Assembly: GCA_019744845.1 (NCBI GenBank)
Contig: JAIETW010000001.1
Span: 241,999 to 282,175, forward strand
Direction of reading: 5' to 3'
DNA from: Patescibacteria group bacterium
Lineage (GTDB): Bacteria > Patescibacteriota > Minisyncoccia > Phycocordibacterales > Phycocordibacteraceae
DNA length: 40,177 nucleotides
The notes beneath the pieces are model-generated. The model ran no database searches and was not told the DNA's origin. It saw only the letters and a list, made by a program, of their open reading frames with translations. Position numbers and translations under genes: made by a program. The first letter of the stretch is position 1; every line of letters begins with the position of its first letter. This document shows, piece by piece, positions 16,937 through 39,971 of the stretch.

Positions 16937-17424
16937 AAAAGCGCTCTTTCTTCCAGAAGCTCACCGGTGGCGTTCCTCTGAACGACGATTTTGACGATTT
17001 TGAGGAAGAACAGGATCCCGCCCCACGTCCAGGGCTTCCAGGACGCGAGCAGGCAGCACAGCGCGTGATGTCCTACCACGAAGAAGAGCCTACCGAAGGT
17101 CAGCTCCCTATTGATATGTATCAGACGCAGGATGAGATCATCATCCGCACCTTTATCGCTGGCGTACGTCCTGATGAAATGAATGTCTCCATTAGCCGCG
17201 ACATGGTGGTGATTGAAGGATCACGTCAGGAGCGTGAGCAGGTCACCGATGGCGACTACTTTAGCCGTGAACTCTTCTGGGGATCATTCACACGAACCAT
17301 TCTTCTTCCCGAAGAAGTAGACGTAGATACCTGTACCGCAACGGCAAAGGATGGTCTTTTGACCCTCGTGCTTCCAAAGCTTGATAAGGCACGTCAGACC
17401 AAGCTTAAGGTTCGCGTAGGCTAA
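16933..17424 (+). CDS. Hsp20/alpha-crystallin family small heat-shock protein
   Basis: QLPIDMYQTQDEIIIRTFIAGVRPDEMNVSISRDMVVIEGSRQ...SFTRTILLPEEVDVDTCTATAKDGLLTLVLPK. Confidence 0.9.
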   Translation: MKKRSFFQKLTGGVPLNDDFDDFEEEQDPAPRPGLPGREQAAQRVMSYHEEEPTEGQLPIDMYQTQDEIIIRTFIAGVRPDEMNVSISRDMVVIEGSRQEREQVTDGDYFSRELFWGSFTRTILLPEEVDVDTCTATAKDGLLTLVLPKLDKARQTKLKVRVG

Positions 17425-18518
17425 AGCACTTTTGTCTCAAGTGGTGGCGGTGTATTCACCTGCATCACCGTAAATCCGATTCGCCCGATGGTCTGCCCAC
17501 CGGGCGTTTCTACAGACACTCTCCACTTCCCAGTAACAAGATTTGATTTCCAGGAGTAGCCACGGTATCCGCCTTCTCGTCCTCCCGTCATCGGGAATGA
17601 GACATTACTTTCAGTAATCCAGCGGCGAGACGTTGGATTGTAATATTCCCATCGGTGCACGATCGCACCTCCACGAAGATTGCCTGGTGCGGCAACCGCA
17701 CTATATGCATACAACGTTTCTCCTGGTGTGGTCTCTATGGTTTCTTCAAAGACCCACCATGGCTCAGGTGCCTCGTCAGTGACTCTGTAGCCGTTCCCTT
17801 CACGTACGAGTGAGTGATAGATGCCTGCGTCTTTAAGCGCGAGCGGAATAGGAGGAATGAGGCCCGCAAAATAGGAAACATTAACCACCAAAAGCACTGC
17901 GGCAGTGGTGATCATCACGCTTCGTACTTCTCCTCGAAAGCGTGCGGGATTGAATACCGAAAGAACCCACAAGAAAAGAGCGAACACCCCTACTGCAATT
18001 CCGGTACTTCCAAGAAACGACCACGGACCTATGAAACCAGTGTAGAACGGGAAGGCGAACACTGCGTAGGCGTACAGCGCAAAGAAAAGTAGGGTCGTCT
18101 GGAAGATAAGAAAGTGCTTATACATGCGAAAGTATTCATTCCCTGCATAGATAAGTCCGAGAATAATAAGGAAAGGCCATGAGACGAGAATGACAGAATG
18201 TGTTGCATAGAACACGGTGAATCCAGAGAAGAGGCCTCCGAATGCATACTGCACTGCAAGCGGGAAAAGTACCGAGAGTGCTTTCTTCCATCTGATCTCT
18301 GAGTCATGACAGGAGGCCGTCGCGTGCGCACCAAGCACCGACACGACGGCGAGTGTGAGATACCCTGCAAATACGAGTACTACTATTGAGAGTGGCAAAA
18401 GCCCAAAGGTAAGAAAGTCAGTGACGAATCCGAACGCGAAAAGGACCGCGCCTAGTTTGCGTTCATTTCTCGCTGCAAATGAAAGTATCCTATCGAAGAG
18501 GTTCATCGATGGACTCAT
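17421..18518 (-). CDS. Polytopic membrane protein with C-terminal DUF2914-like domain
   Basis: 365 aa; multiple TM helices, then GETLYAYSAVAAPGNLRGGAIVHRWEYYNPTSRRWITESNVSFPMTGGREGGYRGYSWKSNLVTGKWRVSVETPGGQTIGRIGFTV. Confidence 0.7.
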   Translation of the reverse strand: MSPSMNLFDRILSFAARNERKLGAVLFAFGFVTDFLTFGLLPLSIVVLVFAGYLTLAVVSVLGAHATASCHDSEIRWKKALSVLFPLAVQYAFGGLFSGFTVFYATHSVILVSWPFLIILGLIYAGNEYFRMYKHFLIFQTTLLFFALYAYAVFAFPFYTGFIGPWSFLGSTGIAVGVFALFLWVLSVFNPARFRGEVRSVMITTAAVLLVVNVSYFAGLIPPIPLALKDAGIYHSLVREGNGYRVTDEAPEPWWVFEETIETTPGETLYAYSAVAAPGNLRGGAIVHRWEYYNPTSRRWITESNVSFPMTGGREGGYRGYSWKSNLVTGKWRVSVETPGGQTIGRIGFTVMQVNTPPPLETKVL

Positions 18519-18519
18519 G

Positions 18520-18592
18520 TGCTTGGACCCGGGCTCGAACCGGGGACCCCTTCCTCTTCAGGGAAGTGCTCTACCAACTGAGCTATCCAAGC
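18520..18592 (-). tRNA. tRNA-Phe(GAA), CCA not encoded
   Basis: GCTTGGA TA GCTCAGTTGGTAGAGC ACTTCC CTGAAGA GGAAG ... CCCCGGTTCGAGCCCGGG TCCAAGC A; followed by C then ATG of the 17421..18518 ORF. Confidence 0.95.
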
Positions 18593-18634
18593 AGGTACGG
18601 GGTACTGTACCTTAAAACCCCGTCTCCGTGAAGT

Positions 18635-18907
18635 CTACATTCCGAACTGTTCCCGGTACTGCTCAAAGAGGCGCTGGAAGTCCTCAGGACGCATTTCTGC
18701 GGCTCCGGTAAACATGTTCAAGAGCGGTGCAAGATACGTCATCGTGATGTAATAGCCACCTGCAAAGATGACGAGCCAGATAACTATACGGATGACACCA
18801 TGAATAAATGCGTCCCGACGCATCGCCTTAAGTATCTTGTTGTTCTCGCGTGTGAGACGAAGAGTCTCCTTTGCCATCTCACCAATTGATTCTGTTTCTT
18901 CGTACAT
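18635..18907 (-). CDS. Small single-TM protein of unknown function (start possibly TTG at 18913)
   Basis: MYEETESIGEMAKETLRLTRENNKILKAMRRDAFIHGVIRIVIWLVIFAGGYYITMTYLAPLLNMF...; between tRNA-Phe and tRNA-Arg. Confidence 0.6.
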   Translation of the reverse strand: MYEETESIGEMAKETLRLTRENNKILKAMRRDAFIHGVIRIVIWLVIFAGGYYITMTYLAPLLNMFTGAAEMRPEDFQRLFEQYREQFGM

Positions 18908-19004: not shown

Positions 19005-19643
19005 TTATGAGGATACTACCCTTTCACGACAATCTTTTCCAATAAGGGAGATTATTGATTGGATAAGAAGTCTGTCTCGTATTCCTGAAATCACTCGCAC
19101 CCTGCACATACCATACGGTAGTTTCCCCTTCTTCTTTCCTTCAATGATCTCTACTCTTTTGATTGATTTAAGAGGCATCCCAATTGTACGAGCCCAGTAA
19201 ACTTTCGCTGGCGTCACCGCGACATCGGTGTGGGTTCTAATAGAAATAGAGAGGCGTTCTTTTGAGATACCTATTGCCCTCAGAGAACATATGAAAGTCT
19301 GAATGAGTGCCGGATCAGAATTGATAATGGAGAAATCACGTTTTGTACCTTCCCCCCAATACAGTGCGACGAGTAAAAGCAAAAGATCTCGTTTTGAAAT
19401 AGCCCCTACTAATGCACGAGCTTCATTTGTTATGTGTTCTCTGAGGGCGGCGGCTCTTTGTTTTGATCCTCCTTGTTTTTGTTTCAATGCCTCTCTAAAT
19501 TTCTCAGGCACTACTACACTTTTAATATGACGTTGCACTGTTGTCTTAGCAATTCCAGTTTCGCGAGAGATTTCTGGAATACTCTTCCCATTCATTCGTA
19601 AATTTACCAGTTGCCTATGAATAGATTGAGGCAATTTGTTCAT
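19005..19643 (-). CDS. Helix-turn-helix protein with LAGLIDADG-like (homing-endonuclease-like) C-terminal region
   Basis: N-terminal HTH (LRMNGKSIPEISRETGIAKTTVQRHIKSV); core LLLLVALYWGEGTKRDFSIINSDPALIQTFICSLRAIGISKERLSISIRTH. Start at 19643 favoured by TGCTATATT + 7 nt (alternative ATG 19664). Confidence 0.5.
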   Translation of the reverse strand: MNKLPQSIHRQLVNLRMNGKSIPEISRETGIAKTTVQRHIKSVVVPEKFREALKQKQGGSKQRAAALREHITNEARALVGAISKRDLLLLLVALYWGEGTKRDFSIINSDPALIQTFICSLRAIGISKERLSISIRTHTDVAVTPAKVYWARTIGMPLKSIKRVEIIEGKKKGKLPYGMCRVRVISGIRDRLLIQSIISLIGKDCRERVVSS

Positions 19644-19700
19644 GTATATGAATATAGCACTCATATACTAGGAATCTTTTGATTTATCCACTAAATATAT

Positions 19701-20058: not shown

Positions 20059-20724
20059 CTATGGGGACGGGTTACCGGGCACCGAAAACCAGACAAACGT
20101 CTCATTGGGACCCTCTTCGGTACCGCTCACAGTAAAACCTGCCTCAACCAGACGTGCTAATCGCTTCTGGCGATCTTTTACATTGTGATCATAAAACCCC
20201 ACCACAAGTGCTCCTCCAGGACTTACGCGTGAATAGAGGTCCTTCACAAATTCAATCTCTTTTGATTTCTCTAGTTTCAAATGATCCCATGCGTTCCAGT
20301 ACACGACATCAAATGTCTTCTGAAGGCTCTCCAGATCCTCTACGGAATGTACGAAGTGTGATTCTTTTCCTGGAAAGAGTTTTTGAGCATCACGTACTCG
20401 TTCTTTTCTCTTATCAAGACCGTACGGTTCTATCGTATGTGTAGACCATTCCTGGAGTGAGCGTAGTAAAAGACCGTTCGCACTTCCATAATCAAGTACG
20501 GAAACAGTCGCCTTGTCTCCTGCAATACGATCAATAATTCCTGCAATTGGTTTCCTTCCCTTCTCCCACCATGCCCACAACTTTTCTGCAGAATCTCGCC
20601 AACTGGTAACGATCTCACTCCCCTTCAATATACGTTGAAGTTTTGCACGATTCGTACGTATATCGTCAAACGTTTCGTCTCGCGACGAGGGACCTCCTTG
20701 ATAAGGAAATTCATTGAGCTTCAT
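20059..20724 (-). CDS. Class I SAM-dependent methyltransferase
   Basis: 221 aa; VSVLDYGSANGLLLRSL...DVVYWNAWDHL...SPGGALVVGFYD; ATG shares its A with the CCA of tRNA-Gly. Confidence 0.75.
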   Translation of the reverse strand: MKLNEFPYQGGPSSRDETFDDIRTNRAKLQRILKGSEIVTSWRDSAEKLWAWWEKGRKPIAGIIDRIAGDKATVSVLDYGSANGLLLRSLQEWSTHTIEPYGLDKRKERVRDAQKLFPGKESHFVHSVEDLESLQKTFDVVYWNAWDHLKLEKSKEIEFVKDLYSRVSPGGALVVGFYDHNVKDRQKRLARLVEAGFTVSGTEEGPNETFVWFSVPGNPSP

Positions 20725-20797
20725 GGTGCGGGATACGAGAATCGAACTCGTGCTTATTGCTTGGGAAGCAATCGTCCTGCCACTAAACTAATCCCGC
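20724..20797 (-). tRNA. tRNA-Gly(CCC), CCA present in DNA
   Basis: GCGGGAT TAGTTTAGTGGCAGGAC GATTGC TTCCCAA GCAAT AAGC ACGAGTTCGATTCTCGT ATCCCGC A CCA. Confidence 0.95.
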
Positions 20798-21151
20798 TCA
20801 TAGACCGAACCAACCGAACACCTTCCTCCACCACGGAAGCGGAGGACCAGCCTCTGACTGGTCTTCAACGACGATAATAACCTCTTCCCCGGGACGTGCA
20901 ACGCCATGCGCCTCCCTGAGTGTTGCTTCCTCCCCACGAGGCGTATTCAGCTCTGCAATGTTCTCAGTCAAGATCTCTTTCCGCTCTGTCAGGGATGCAA
21001 GCTCTGCCTGTGCCTCCATCGCCGCATGTCGTGCACGCTCTTCTTTCTGCATAATTCCCCACAACAACCAGAGAAGCCAAATAAGCACGAGTGCAAGAAG
21101 CGCGATAATCGCTGCTTCACGAAACCTGAGTTTCTCCTTGCGGCGGGCCAT
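20798..21151 (-). CDS. FtsB/DivIC-like septum formation initiator family protein
   Basis: 117 aa; single TM (EAAIIALLALVLIWLLWLLWGI) followed by coiled coil and a short Pro/Trp tail; TGGTATACT box 7 nt upstream of ATG. Confidence 0.6.
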   Translation of the reverse strand: MARRKEKLRFREAAIIALLALVLIWLLWLLWGIMQKEERARHAAMEAQAELASLTERKEILTENIAELNTPRGEEATLREAHGVARPGEEVIIVVEDQSEAGPPLPWWRKVFGWFGL

Positions 21152-21169
21152 TACGGCCAGTATACCAAC

Positions 21170-27101: not shown

Positions 27102-27111
27102 CTCCATGTGT

Positions 27112-27439
27112 GTCGACCGATACGATAAGCCGAATTCTGTCATGCATTGCTGCACGGACGATTATCTATCTGGGAATGACATTACTGTCACCCTCAAGCG
27201 GCGCTCTCCGGTAAAGGAGCACGGCCTTGCACAGAAGTAAGGATTTGGCCGTTTCATCTTCATCTCTCAATGAAGTTCATCCCGAAGGATGTCATTGGCT
27301 TTCGCCTCCGACGTCACTGTTCGCACCTCGCGCCTCGCGGCGGACGGGCGTTACCCGCTACCATCCTGCAGAATAATCTGCCTGTGTTCGGACTTTCCTC
27401 TCTTATTGCTAAGAGCAATCGTCTGTATCGGTCCGTCTA
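27112..27439 (-). ncRNA. rnpB: RNase P RNA
   Basis: Minus strand has GAGGAAAGTCCGAACAC (P4 5' strand), GGGTAACGCCC, GTGCGAACAGTGACGTC, GACAGAATTCGGCTTATC (P4 3' strand) and closing P1 arms ACCGATAC/GTATCGGT. Ends are approximate. Confidence 0.95.
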
Positions 27440-28953: not shown

Positions 28954-29289
28954 TTAGGAGAGTATGTCTTGTGCACGCACCGCATCACTATGCATCGCCT
29001 CCTTCAATTGTTCATCGTTTTCAAATCGCGCAGTTTCCCGAATCTTTTCTACTAAGATGATGCGGATGTCTTTCCCATAGAGATCCCCAGAAAAGTCAAA
29101 GAGGTGTGCTTCTAGAATGTGGCGCTCGGGATCTGCAAACGCGACTGCGGCGTACATGGTGTCATCAAGTACTACATGTGCAGCATAGATACCCGACACA
29201 CTGGTATCCGTAAGGGGAATGTTCGCGGTTGGGTACCCAAGCGCGTGCGCTTTTGCACTTCCTCCCGCAACAATGCCGTGAAATTCCAT
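28954..29289 (-). CDS. Stand-alone riboflavin kinase domain (RibF C-terminal domain only)
   Basis: MEFHGIVAGGSAKAHALGYPTANIPL...SGIYAAHVVLDDTMYAAVAFADPERHILEAHLFDFSGDLYGKDIRIILVEKIRETARFENDEQLKEAM; no FMN adenylyltransferase domain upstream (a tRNA-Ser gene is there). Confidence 0.85.
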   Translation of the reverse strand: MEFHGIVAGGSAKAHALGYPTANIPLTDTSVSGIYAAHVVLDDTMYAAVAFADPERHILEAHLFDFSGDLYGKDIRIILVEKIRETARFENDEQLKEAMHSDAVRAQDILS

Positions 29290-29378
29290 GGCGGAGGCGG
29301 AGAGATTCGAACTCTCGAGACCCTTTCGAGCCTGCCACCTTTCCAAGGTGGTGCACTAGACCACTATGCGACGCCTCC
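29289..29378 (-). tRNA. tRNA-Ser(GGA), long variable arm, CCA present in DNA
   Basis: GGAGGCG TC GCATAGTGGTCTAGTGC ACCACC TTGGAAA GGTGG CAGGCTCGAAAGGGTCTC GAGAGTTCGAATCTCTC CGCCTCC G CCA. Confidence 0.95.
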
Positions 29379-29387
29379 GTGAGGCTG

Positions 29388-30293
29388 TTATACCACTTCT
29401 TCCGCCTTGCTACCAAGAAGGCGCTTCACGCGATCCTCTACCGGTGGATGGGTCGCAAAGAGCTTGTTCACGAACTTCCCTGCCTCTGCGCCAAAGGGAT
29501 TTGCAATGAACAAGTGCGCAGTCGCGTGACTGGCCTTACGCATTGGTGCGGCGTATCCACTGATCTTTCGGAGTGCACTGGCGAGTCCTTCTGGATAACG
29601 AGTGAGAAGTGCGCCTGACGCGTCCGCAAGATATTCACGACGACGAGAGATCGCAAGTTGAATAAGCTGCGCAGCGATAGGGGCAAGGATGATGGCAATC
29701 ACTGCAAGCACCGCCATGATCGCGCCTCCCTTTCCACTGTCCCGATCATTCCCACCCATAAGCGACATACGAAGGAACATGTCTGCGACAATAGCGATCA
29801 CTCCCGCAAGCACCACCGCAACCGTCATGACCAGCATGTCTTTGTTTTTGATGTGAGAGAGCTCGTGTGCGATCACTCCCTCAAGCTCTGCACGATCAAG
29901 CATTGCAAGAAGTCCGGTCGTGGCTGCCACCACCGCATGCTTCTCATCACGTCCGGTCGCAAACGCATTTGGCGCAGGATCATTCACCACGTAGAGTTTT
30001 GGCATTGGCATGCCGTTTGCGATAGAGAGATTTTCCGTGATGGTGTAAAGATCAAAGTACTCTTCACGAGACGCAGGCTTTGCGCCCGTCATAGAAAGCA
30101 CAATCTTGTCGGAGAACCAATAACTTCCCACGTTCATGAGAAGGGAGAAAATCACTGCCCCATAGAGAATGCTTACGTCTCCGTAATACCAGGAGAGCGC
30201 CCATCCGATTGCAATAACCACGAGCAAGAACCCGAGCATGAGGCCCCAGGTTCTCAGTACATTATTTGATCGTTCTTGATATAAGTTTGCCAT
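29388..30293 (-). CDS. htpX: HtpX-like M48 membrane zinc protease
   Basis: 301 aa; LEGVIAHELSHIKNKDMLVMTVAVVLAG; PNAFATGRDEKHAVVAATTGLL; C-terminal LFATHPPVEDRVKRL. Confidence 0.93.
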   Translation of the reverse strand: MANLYQERSNNVLRTWGLMLGFLLVVIAIGWALSWYYGDVSILYGAVIFSLLMNVGSYWFSDKIVLSMTGAKPASREEYFDLYTITENLSIANGMPMPKLYVVNDPAPNAFATGRDEKHAVVAATTGLLAMLDRAELEGVIAHELSHIKNKDMLVMTVAVVLAGVIAIVADMFLRMSLMGGNDRDSGKGGAIMAVLAVIAIILAPIAAQLIQLAISRRREYLADASGALLTRYPEGLASALRKISGYAAPMRKASHATAHLFIANPFGAEAGKFVNKLFATHPPVEDRVKRLLGSKAEEVV

Positions 30294-38066: not shown

Positions 38067-39971
38067 ATGTCTTCAGCACCAGCTCCAGCACCTGCGCCCG
38101 CTTCTGGCGGCGCACCAAGCCGCCCAACCGGCCCGCAAAGCGATCGTCCTCGCCCACCATTCCGTGGTGAACGTGGAGGTCGTGGACGCGGAAGCCGTGG
38201 TGGGCGCGGACGTGATACACGCCGTCCCATGAGGAGCGGTCCTTCCCAAGGAGGTGCCGCACCTGAAAAGCGTGTTGCCGATTATTTCCCAGAAAAACCA
38301 GCAGCCGGCATTGTTCGCGTCATCCCTCTGGGTGGCGTAGAAGAAGTCGGTCGCAACATGTGTGCGATTGAAGCCAACAACGACATCTTTGTGCTTGATG
38401 TGGGCTTCCAGTTTATGTCTGAGGGTGATGCCCCAGGTATTGATTACGTACTTCCGAACACGAAGTATCTTGAACAGAATATTGATCGCGTCCGTGCCGT
38501 CATCATTACGCACGGCCACCTCGATCACATCGGTGGTATTCCCTTCCTTATGGGACGCATGGGCAATCCTCCGATCTACACACAGAACCTCACGTCAGTA
38601 ATGATCTTGAAGCGTCAGGAGGAATATCCTGAAATGCCTCGTCCAGAAATGGTGGTGGTAGAGCCAGGATCCGTACACACCATCGGAAACACCAAGGTGA
38701 AGTTCTTCCCAGTGACTCACTCCATTCCTGACTCCATGGGTGTCTCTATCCAGAGTCCAATCGGAAACGTCGTCATTACCGGAGACTTGAAGCTTGACCA
38801 TGAGAATGGTGAGCCGATGCCACACGAAGCAAAGAAGTGGGGTGAGCTTGGTAAGGACAACAACCTTCTTTTCATTGCTGACTCAACCAACGCCGAGCGT
38901 GACGGCTTCTCTATTCCAGAGCGTAAGGTGCACGAGACGCTTGAGAACATCGTCCGCACCGTCTCCGGTCGTCTCATCATCGGTACCTTTGCGTCTCAGT
39001 TTGAGCGCATGATCCACATCATTGAGACTGCCGAGAAGATGGGTAAGAAGATTGTGACTGAAGGTCGTTCAATGAAGACGAACCTTGAGATTGCTCAAAA
39101 GACAGGGCTCTTGAAGATTGATAAGTCCACCGTGATTCCTGCAACGGAGATTGGTGATTACCCTGCCGACAAGATTATTGTCCTTGCAACCGGTGCACAG
39201 GGAGAAGAGTTTGCCGCACTTATGCGTATTGCGACCAAGCAACACAAGAACATTGTGCTTAATCCTCGCGACACGGTGGTGCTTTCCTCTTCCGTCATTC
39301 CAGGAAACGAAATCGCCGTGCAGCGATTGAAGGACAACTTGTACCGTAACGGTGCATCCTTGATCCACTACCGCTCTTCCGACGTGCACTCAACCGGACA
39401 CGGAAACACCGGAGAGCTCGTATGGATCAACAAGCAGGTTGGCGCCAAGTACTTCATGCCTGCCTACGGCTACTACTCAATGACTTCATGTCACGCAAAG
39501 GCGGTTGAACAGGCAGGCTTCCCTCGCGAGAACATCATCCTTGCCGACAACGGTACGGTGATTGATATGGATGGACAAGTGCTAAACATTCACAAACAGA
39601 AAGTACCGTCTTCCCCACTTATCGTGGACGGCTTTTCTATCGGTGATATGCAGGAGGTGGTCATCCGTGACCGTCAGGCACTCGCCAAAGATGGTATGTT
39701 CGTCATCATTGCGACGATCAATCTTAAGACTGGAAAGCTTCGTAAGTCTCCAGACATCATCTCTCGTGGCTTCGTCTATCTTCGTGAATCCCAGGATCTC
39801 TTGAACCAGGCTCGCCTGCTCATCAAGAAGACTGTGGAAGACACGACGGAAGGCATGAATCCTGTTGATCTTGATTACGTGAAGAATACGATCTCAGACA
39901 CCATGTCTGGCTTCCTCTTTACGCGAACCAACAAGGCCCCAATGGTGATTCCGGTCCTTATTGGAGTCTAA
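38067..39971 (+). CDS. rnj: Ribonuclease J with Arg/Gly-rich N-terminal extension
   Basis: IRVIPLGGVEEVGRNMCAIE...VIITHGHLDHIGGIPFL...GDLKLDHENGEPM...; N-terminus RPPFRGERGGRGRGSRGGRGRDTRRP. Confidence 0.95.
   Translation: MSSAPAPAPAPASGGAPSRPTGPQSDRPRPPFRGERGGRGRGSRGGRGRDTRRPMRSGPSQGGAAPEKRVADYFPEKPAAGIVRVIPLGGVEEVGRNMCAIEANNDIFVLDVGFQFMSEGDAPGIDYVLPNTKYLEQNIDRVRAVIITHGHLDHIGGIPFLMGRMGNPPIYTQNLTSVMILKRQEEYPEMPRPEMVVVEPGSVHTIGNTKVKFFPVTHSIPDSMGVSIQSPIGNVVITGDLKLDHENGEPMPHEAKKWGELGKDNNLLFIADSTNAERDGFSIPERKVHETLENIVRTVSGRLIIGTFASQFERMIHIIETAEKMGKKIVTEGRSMKTNLEIAQKTGLLKIDKSTVIPATEIGDYPADKIIVLATGAQGEEFAALMRIATKQHKNIVLNPRDTVVLSSSVIPGNEIAVQRLKDNLYRNGASLIHYRSSDVHSTGHGNTGELVWINKQVGAKYFMPAYGYYSMTSCHAKAVEQAGFPRENIILADNGTVIDMDGQVLNIHKQKVPSSPLIVDGFSIGDMQEVVIRDRQALAKDGMFVIIATINLKTGKLRKSPDIISRGFVYLRESQDLLNQARLLIKKTVEDTTEGMNPVDLDYVKNTISDTMSGFLFTRTNKAPMVIPVLIGV

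Follow-up and report, generated by a model that had tools for sequence, protein, structure and literature searches.

How is a protein gene expressed when the first letter of its start codon is also the last letter of the tRNA in front of it? In the window, by which we mean the whole 40,177-nt stretch analysed, a divIC/FtsB-like septum formation gene, tRNA-Gly(CCC) and a SAM-dependent methyltransferase gene follow each other on the minus strand (Table 1), and we consider this locus together with the genome that contains it and with the corresponding loci of its relatives.

The junction and its counterparts in the window

The TGA stop of the divIC/FtsB-like ORF (20800-20798) adjoins the 5' end of tRNA-Gly(CCC) with a gap of 0, and the A of the methyltransferase start codon, at 20724, is the A of the CCA of this tRNA. 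The stop/tRNA/CC[A]TG junction, first described in a sequence-only reading of this DNA, is real: ARAGORN places the tRNA including CCA at 20724-20797 (-), the Rfam match to the tRNA stops with the discriminator (20727), and the ORF coordinates bear the layout out. The Pfam DivIC match of the upstream ORF (28.5 bits) lies slightly under the curated cut-off of 28.9. The methyltransferase ORF encodes 221 aa of the SAM-dependent class (Methyltransf_23 match, E=3.4e-9), and the junction ATG is the sole Met codon in the whole of it.

The TATACT box ahead of divIC is likely, judging from its sequence and position, to be a leaderless promoter of this gene that would transcribe tRNA-Gly and the methyltransferase too. 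Since no TANNNT box is present in the 4-16 nt upstream of tRNA-Gly(CCC) that were checked, this tRNA is probably transcribed from the divIC promoter.

Three of the five tRNAs in the window (Gly, Phe and Ser) have an ATG tight behind the discriminator. The tRNA-Phe junction reads ...TCCAAGC-A-C/ATG and opens the DUF2914 gene at 18518, where a second in-frame ATG 12 nt farther in (+13) leaves the start codon uncertain. The tRNA-Ser(GGA) junction reads ...CCTCC-G-CC/ATG and opens the riboflavin kinase gene at 29289; the Flavokinase profile matches from residue 2, and the junction ATG is thereby fixed as the start of this gene. The methyltransferase, DUF2914 and riboflavin kinase genes each lack a TA-like signal of their own, and the ORF behind tRNA-Arg(CCT), which has one, provides the contrast.

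Table 1. Features at the tRNA-gene junctions and genes for RNA processing; positions are those of the window unless a contig is named.
Feature	Position	Strand	Remarks and basis
-10 box TATACT	21159..21164	(-)	7 nt 5' of divIC ATG; sequence and genome-wide spacing peak
divIC/FtsB-like septum formation gene	20798..21151	(-)	ORF; DivIC PF04977 E=1.4e-6
tRNA-Gly(CCC), mature body to discriminator A	20727..20797	(-)	ARAGORN, Rfam
CC (C74, C75) separating discriminator from ATG	20725..20726	(-)	sequence
SAM-dependent methyltransferase gene	20059..20724	(-)	ATG 2 nt past discriminator; no SD, no -10 box at the right spacing
contrast ORF behind tRNA-Arg(CCT)	18635..18907	(-)	own -10 TATACT 18920-18915, 7 nt before ATG
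-10 box TACAGT	18604..18609	(-)	11 nt 5' of tRNA-Phe
tRNA-Phe(GAA), CCA not encoded	18520..18592	(-)	ARAGORN, Rfam
DUF2914 membrane-protein gene	17421..18518	(-)	ATG 1 nt past tRNA-Phe discriminator
-10-like TATAAC	29387..29392	(-)	8 nt 5' of tRNA-Ser
tRNA-Ser(GGA), discriminator G	29292..29378	(-)	ARAGORN, Rfam
riboflavin kinase gene	28954..29289	(-)	ATG 2 nt past tRNA-Ser discriminator (CC[A]TG); Flavokinase E=4.2e-24
type A RNase P RNA gene	27110-27434	(-)	
RNase J	38067-39971	(+)	metallo-beta-lactamase protein
aCPSF1-like beta-CASP protein, 467 aa	G000:C1:389282-390682	(-)	60% identity in G030, 42% in G036

Start signals in the genome

The genome of the window (G000; 760 kb, 99% complete, ~89% coding) is related to Candidatus Kaiserbacteria and other Patescibacteria/Paceibacterota. 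A simple gene caller, which rewards SD motifs, yields 767 usable starts when it is run on all 760,351 bases. TANNNT is found 6-9 nt before the start codon in 280 of these 767 genes vs 41 expected, and SD-like motifs at 4-10 nt before the start number 44 vs 57-69 at control distances despite the bonus of the caller, that is, no Shine-Dalgarno signal rises above the control positions genome-wide. The same -10 spacing peak, weaker, is present in a genome of a different family in the same order (G036). In bacteria, signals of this TA-like kind are a hallmark of leaderless genes (PMC3160421), and from these start signals leaderless mRNAs appear to be the norm in the genome of the window. The tRNA genes carry such boxes as well: 31 of its 41 tRNAs have TANNNT 4-16 nt upstream (background 12%), tRNA-Phe among them and tRNA-Ser nearly so (TATAAC).

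Spacing between tRNAs and downstream genes

How general is an ATG tight behind a tRNA? We survey 3.26 Mb, consisting of the genome of the window, parts of two others and many loci of relatives, the last being centred on lepA, divIC or DUF2914 and not drawn evenly from genomes. Among 311 distinct tRNAs, 139 have a same-strand gene starting <=140 nt downstream. The pooled spacing is bimodal: the ATG lies 1-6 nt past the discriminator in 37 junctions from 12 downstream gene families and 7-12 nt past it in 4 junctions from 3 families, and a second pile-up is seen near 19-28 nt. Counted by family, the difference (12 vs 3) is only a moderate departure from chance (binomial about 0.02), and many of the tight junctions form one orthologous series, about a dozen tight cases being left when tRNA-Phe/DUF2914 is set aside.

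The promoter contrast and this orthologous series are stronger evidence than the family count. A promoter of its own (TANNNT at 6-9 nt) is found for 0 of the 37 genes that start 1-6 nt behind a tRNA and a -10 box for 34 of the 46 that start at 15-40 nt. The tight genes include those for DUF2914, riboflavin kinase, SpoU rRNA methylase, a DHHA1-domain protein, methyltransferases, a hexapeptide protein and DUF1653. The tRNA-Trp(CCA) junction at +3 in the genome of the window, which has an alternative ATG at +24, is doubtful; it is counted within the 37 and not relied on.

Conservation in relatives

The methyltransferase junction is common only to the genome of the window and its nearest relative (L044). 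There it reads TAA/tRNA-Gly/CC[A]TG in front of a 236-aa homologue whose start lies 3 codons farther from the conserved LKGS block, so that the frame is kept; the N-terminus of the methyltransferase is poorly conserved. The gene was inserted recently between tRNA-Gly and grx. Because only these two genomes have it, we use the tRNA-Phe/DUF2914 junction as the main conservation test.

The block lepA-divIC-tRNA-Gly-grx-tRNA-Arg-(small ORF)-tRNA-Phe-DUF2914 is widely conserved. The DUF2914 ATG lies 1-6 nt behind tRNA-Phe in 22 of the 32 orthologues, with spacer sequences that differ widely, and in 7 of the 32 the gene has its own TATAGT + 6 nt + ATG. On the gene tree the tight state changes at least 6 times, 4 of these changes being forced by well-supported branches. 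Since the orthologues switch between states, the tight and the own -10 arrangements replace one another, as expected if both led to the same near-leaderless mRNA. The conservation of the junction, which had been raised with the first description, is thus found across the genus for the class of arrangement, above all tRNA-Phe/DUF2914, and in the nearest relative only for the methyltransferase junction itself.

A proposed mechanism and its alternatives

Two routes to a leaderless 5' end are suggested by these patterns: a -10 box of the gene's own 6-9 nt before the start, or a position 1-6 nt behind a tRNA. For the second route, we infer that the tRNA and the ORF are carried on one transcript, that RNase P would cut the 5' end of the tRNA and an endonuclease would cut at or shortly past the discriminator, and that the freed mRNA (CC-AUG..., C-AUG...) would be translated by leaderless initiation. 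The methyltransferase would be transcribed from the divIC promoter, and DUF2914 and riboflavin kinase from the promoters of their tRNAs. We think it probable that tRNA removal by an endonuclease produces near-leaderless mRNA here and so functions like mitochondrial tRNA punctuation; the resemblance and the almost leaderless released mRNA had both been proposed in the sequence-only reading, and the start signals of the genome lend them support.

The tight spacing might instead have no role. In a genome that is small and compact, spacers would be lost by streamlining, and any translation of the ORFs would start internally on the uncut precursor, independently of SD. The searches for a tRNA 3' endonuclease, which turned up none, speak for this explanation, which we nevertheless hold to be unlikely: a folded acceptor stem against the AUG should block access of the ribosome, the spacing is bimodal and not smoothly short, genes that are not tight usually have their own -10 box, and the DUF2914 spacer drifts in sequence yet stays within 1-6 nt in most orthologues.

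A second alternative is that an exonuclease, RNase R, makes the tRNA 3' ends, so that each transcript yields one product or the other, tRNA or protein, with the choice linked through the shared CCA/ATG. An RNase R family protein is present, RNase Z is not found in the profile searches described below, and RNase R alone matures tRNA 3' ends in Mycoplasma genitalium (PMC4014445). However, an uncut precursor would yield no leaderless AUG, the tight genes include the essential-looking riboflavin kinase and SpoU rRNA methylase, and the A is shared in only 4 of the 37 tight junctions, all of which makes this explanation improbable. The overlap arises when two C's happen to precede the ATG, and other tight junctions read A-C-ATG, A-CACG-ATG, A-CCGT-ATG and so on; as a selected feature it is rejected at this frequency, and it is a by-product. 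Of the tRNAs in the genome of the window, 16 of 41 encode CCA. A CCA-adding enzyme is present, and a cut after the discriminator could therefore leave both the tRNA and the mRNA usable. The suggestion that the tRNA and the methyltransferase are mutually exclusive products is accordingly not upheld; since RNase Zs in other organisms are able to cleave either behind the discriminator or behind a CCA that is encoded (PMC7479834), exclusivity is conceivable for the four overlap junctions, and it is not a common feature of the class.

Hidden promoters inside the tRNA genes, or internal start codons with their own signals, are most improbable: the TATCCC in the 3' half of tRNA-Gly, 5 nt before the ATG, is a weak partial match and TANNNT at 6-9 nt is seen in none of the tight junctions, while the SD-like AAGGAGGT within the methyltransferase ORF is rejected as a start signal, having no ATG, GTG or TTG at usable spacing in an ORF without another Met, and the Flavokinase domain requires the ATG at the junction.

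Some observations weigh against cleavage by an endonuclease. The searches described below bring up no known tRNA 3' endonuclease. RNase R could trim the tRNA exonucleolytically and destroy the downstream mRNA. Some RNase Zs are inhibited by cytidines past the discriminator (PMC7479834), and nearly every tRNA here has C74. The start codon, moreover, is uncertain for some tight genes, namely DUF2914 (ATG at +13), the gene behind tRNA-Trp (+3 or +24) and the methyltransferase with its variable N-terminus.

Candidate processing enzymes

Which enzyme might make the 3' cut? RNase Z, named as the cutter in the sequence-only reading, is rejected on profile searches of 59 genomes from the genus and order, which a very divergent RNase Z could have escaped: none of the 59 has a match that reaches the cut-off of the curated model (TIGR02651). 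Among control genomes the model is over cut-off in 9 of 14 and gives at least a weaker match in 14 of 14. Those of the weak matches that we inspected turn out to be RNase J and an aCPSF1-like beta-CASP protein. The metallo-beta-lactamase proteins of the genome of the window are these two, a ComEC-like domain and a metal-dependent hydrolase. RNase E/G is found in 0 of 19 genomes, and a PNPase/RNase PH domain is not found in the genome of the window.

The aCPSF1-like beta-CASP protein and RNase J are the candidate 3' cutters. More speculatively, and with a good deal of doubt, tRNA genes may be interchangeable promoter substitutes for leaderless genes, which would lose their own -10 box once 1-6 nt behind a tRNA, and the tRNAs may be excised by a 3' endonuclease other than RNase Z, such as the aCPSF1-like beta-CASP protein, whose cut might fall beside C74. 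The aCPSF1-like protein is bacterial and close to the archaeal termination nuclease. In the genome of the window and its relatives, C74 is present in 309 of 320 tRNAs and C75 in 118 of 320, most genes lacking a full encoded CCA. The near-invariant C74 may serve as a signal that is recognised in 3' processing or by RNase P.

Relation to known systems

As in the mitochondrial tRNA punctuation of animal mtDNA, the tRNAs here adjoin ORFs on both sides without room for a leader, and their excision would leave mRNAs virtually without a leader. The present case differs in that it concerns a bacterium with numerous promoters, in which punctuation affects only a subset of the genes and CCA is encoded in part of the tRNAs; and where RNase P and RNase Z cut the tRNA ends in the mitochondrial type, RNase P RNA is found here and RNase Z is not (0/59). 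The case of the window probably works like tRNA punctuation, and we do not claim membership in the mitochondrial type, because RNase Z is not found and the joint transcripts are predicted from sequence. A tRNA and an mRNA also share one bacterial transcript in operons such as tyrU-tufB of E. coli. The tRNA stands upstream of a protein gene there as it does here, where one transcript is inferred, but such operons keep a leader with SD whereas the leader here would be 1-6 nt.

Bacterial leaderless TA-led genes (Zheng et al. 2011, PMC3160421; Streptomyces, mycobacteria) likewise have TANNNT ~10 nt before the start and no SD. Their 5' end is the transcription start, while the tight class would get its 5' end by tRNA removal. 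The Mollicutes, in which RNase R matures tRNA 3' ends (PMC4014445), are alike in their reduced genome, the lack of RNase Z and the presence of RNase R; unlike them, the genome of the window encodes CCA in only part of its tRNAs and has a CCA-adding enzyme.

The phenomenon is more general than was first seen, and it is partly explained. The open-access papers searched describe neither leaderless expression nor tRNA-punctuated mRNAs for this phylum. If the proposed mechanism is true, a bacterium has reached a mitochondrion-like tRNA punctuation tied to leaderless translation and to the streamlining of its genome, and orthologous genes display both the promoter-driven and the tRNA-driven form. 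A further question would then be which enzyme is responsible for tRNA 3' maturation in Patescibacteria from which RNase Z, RNase E/G and PNPase/RNase PH appear to be missing.

Spacing upstream of the tRNAs

On the 5' side, the divIC stop and tRNA-Gly are separated by -1 to 10 nt in roughly half of the relatives. The gap is 0-3 nt in many relatives, and it is exactly 0 at four loci, that of the window among them. The zero spacing is part of a continuum and is not special to the genome of the window. A tRNA-like fragment lies 5' of tRNA-Gly(CCC) in five relatives (L066, L068, L078, L079 and L100), and one locus (L091) has two tRNA-Gly(CCC) genes; together these are signs of tandem duplication. 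Zero spacing is also seen at tRNA-Arg(CCT) in the window, whose 5' end (19004) adjoins the stop codon of a 219-aa HTH protein (19005-19664, minus strand), the -10 box of this tRNA sitting inside the end of the HTH ORF.
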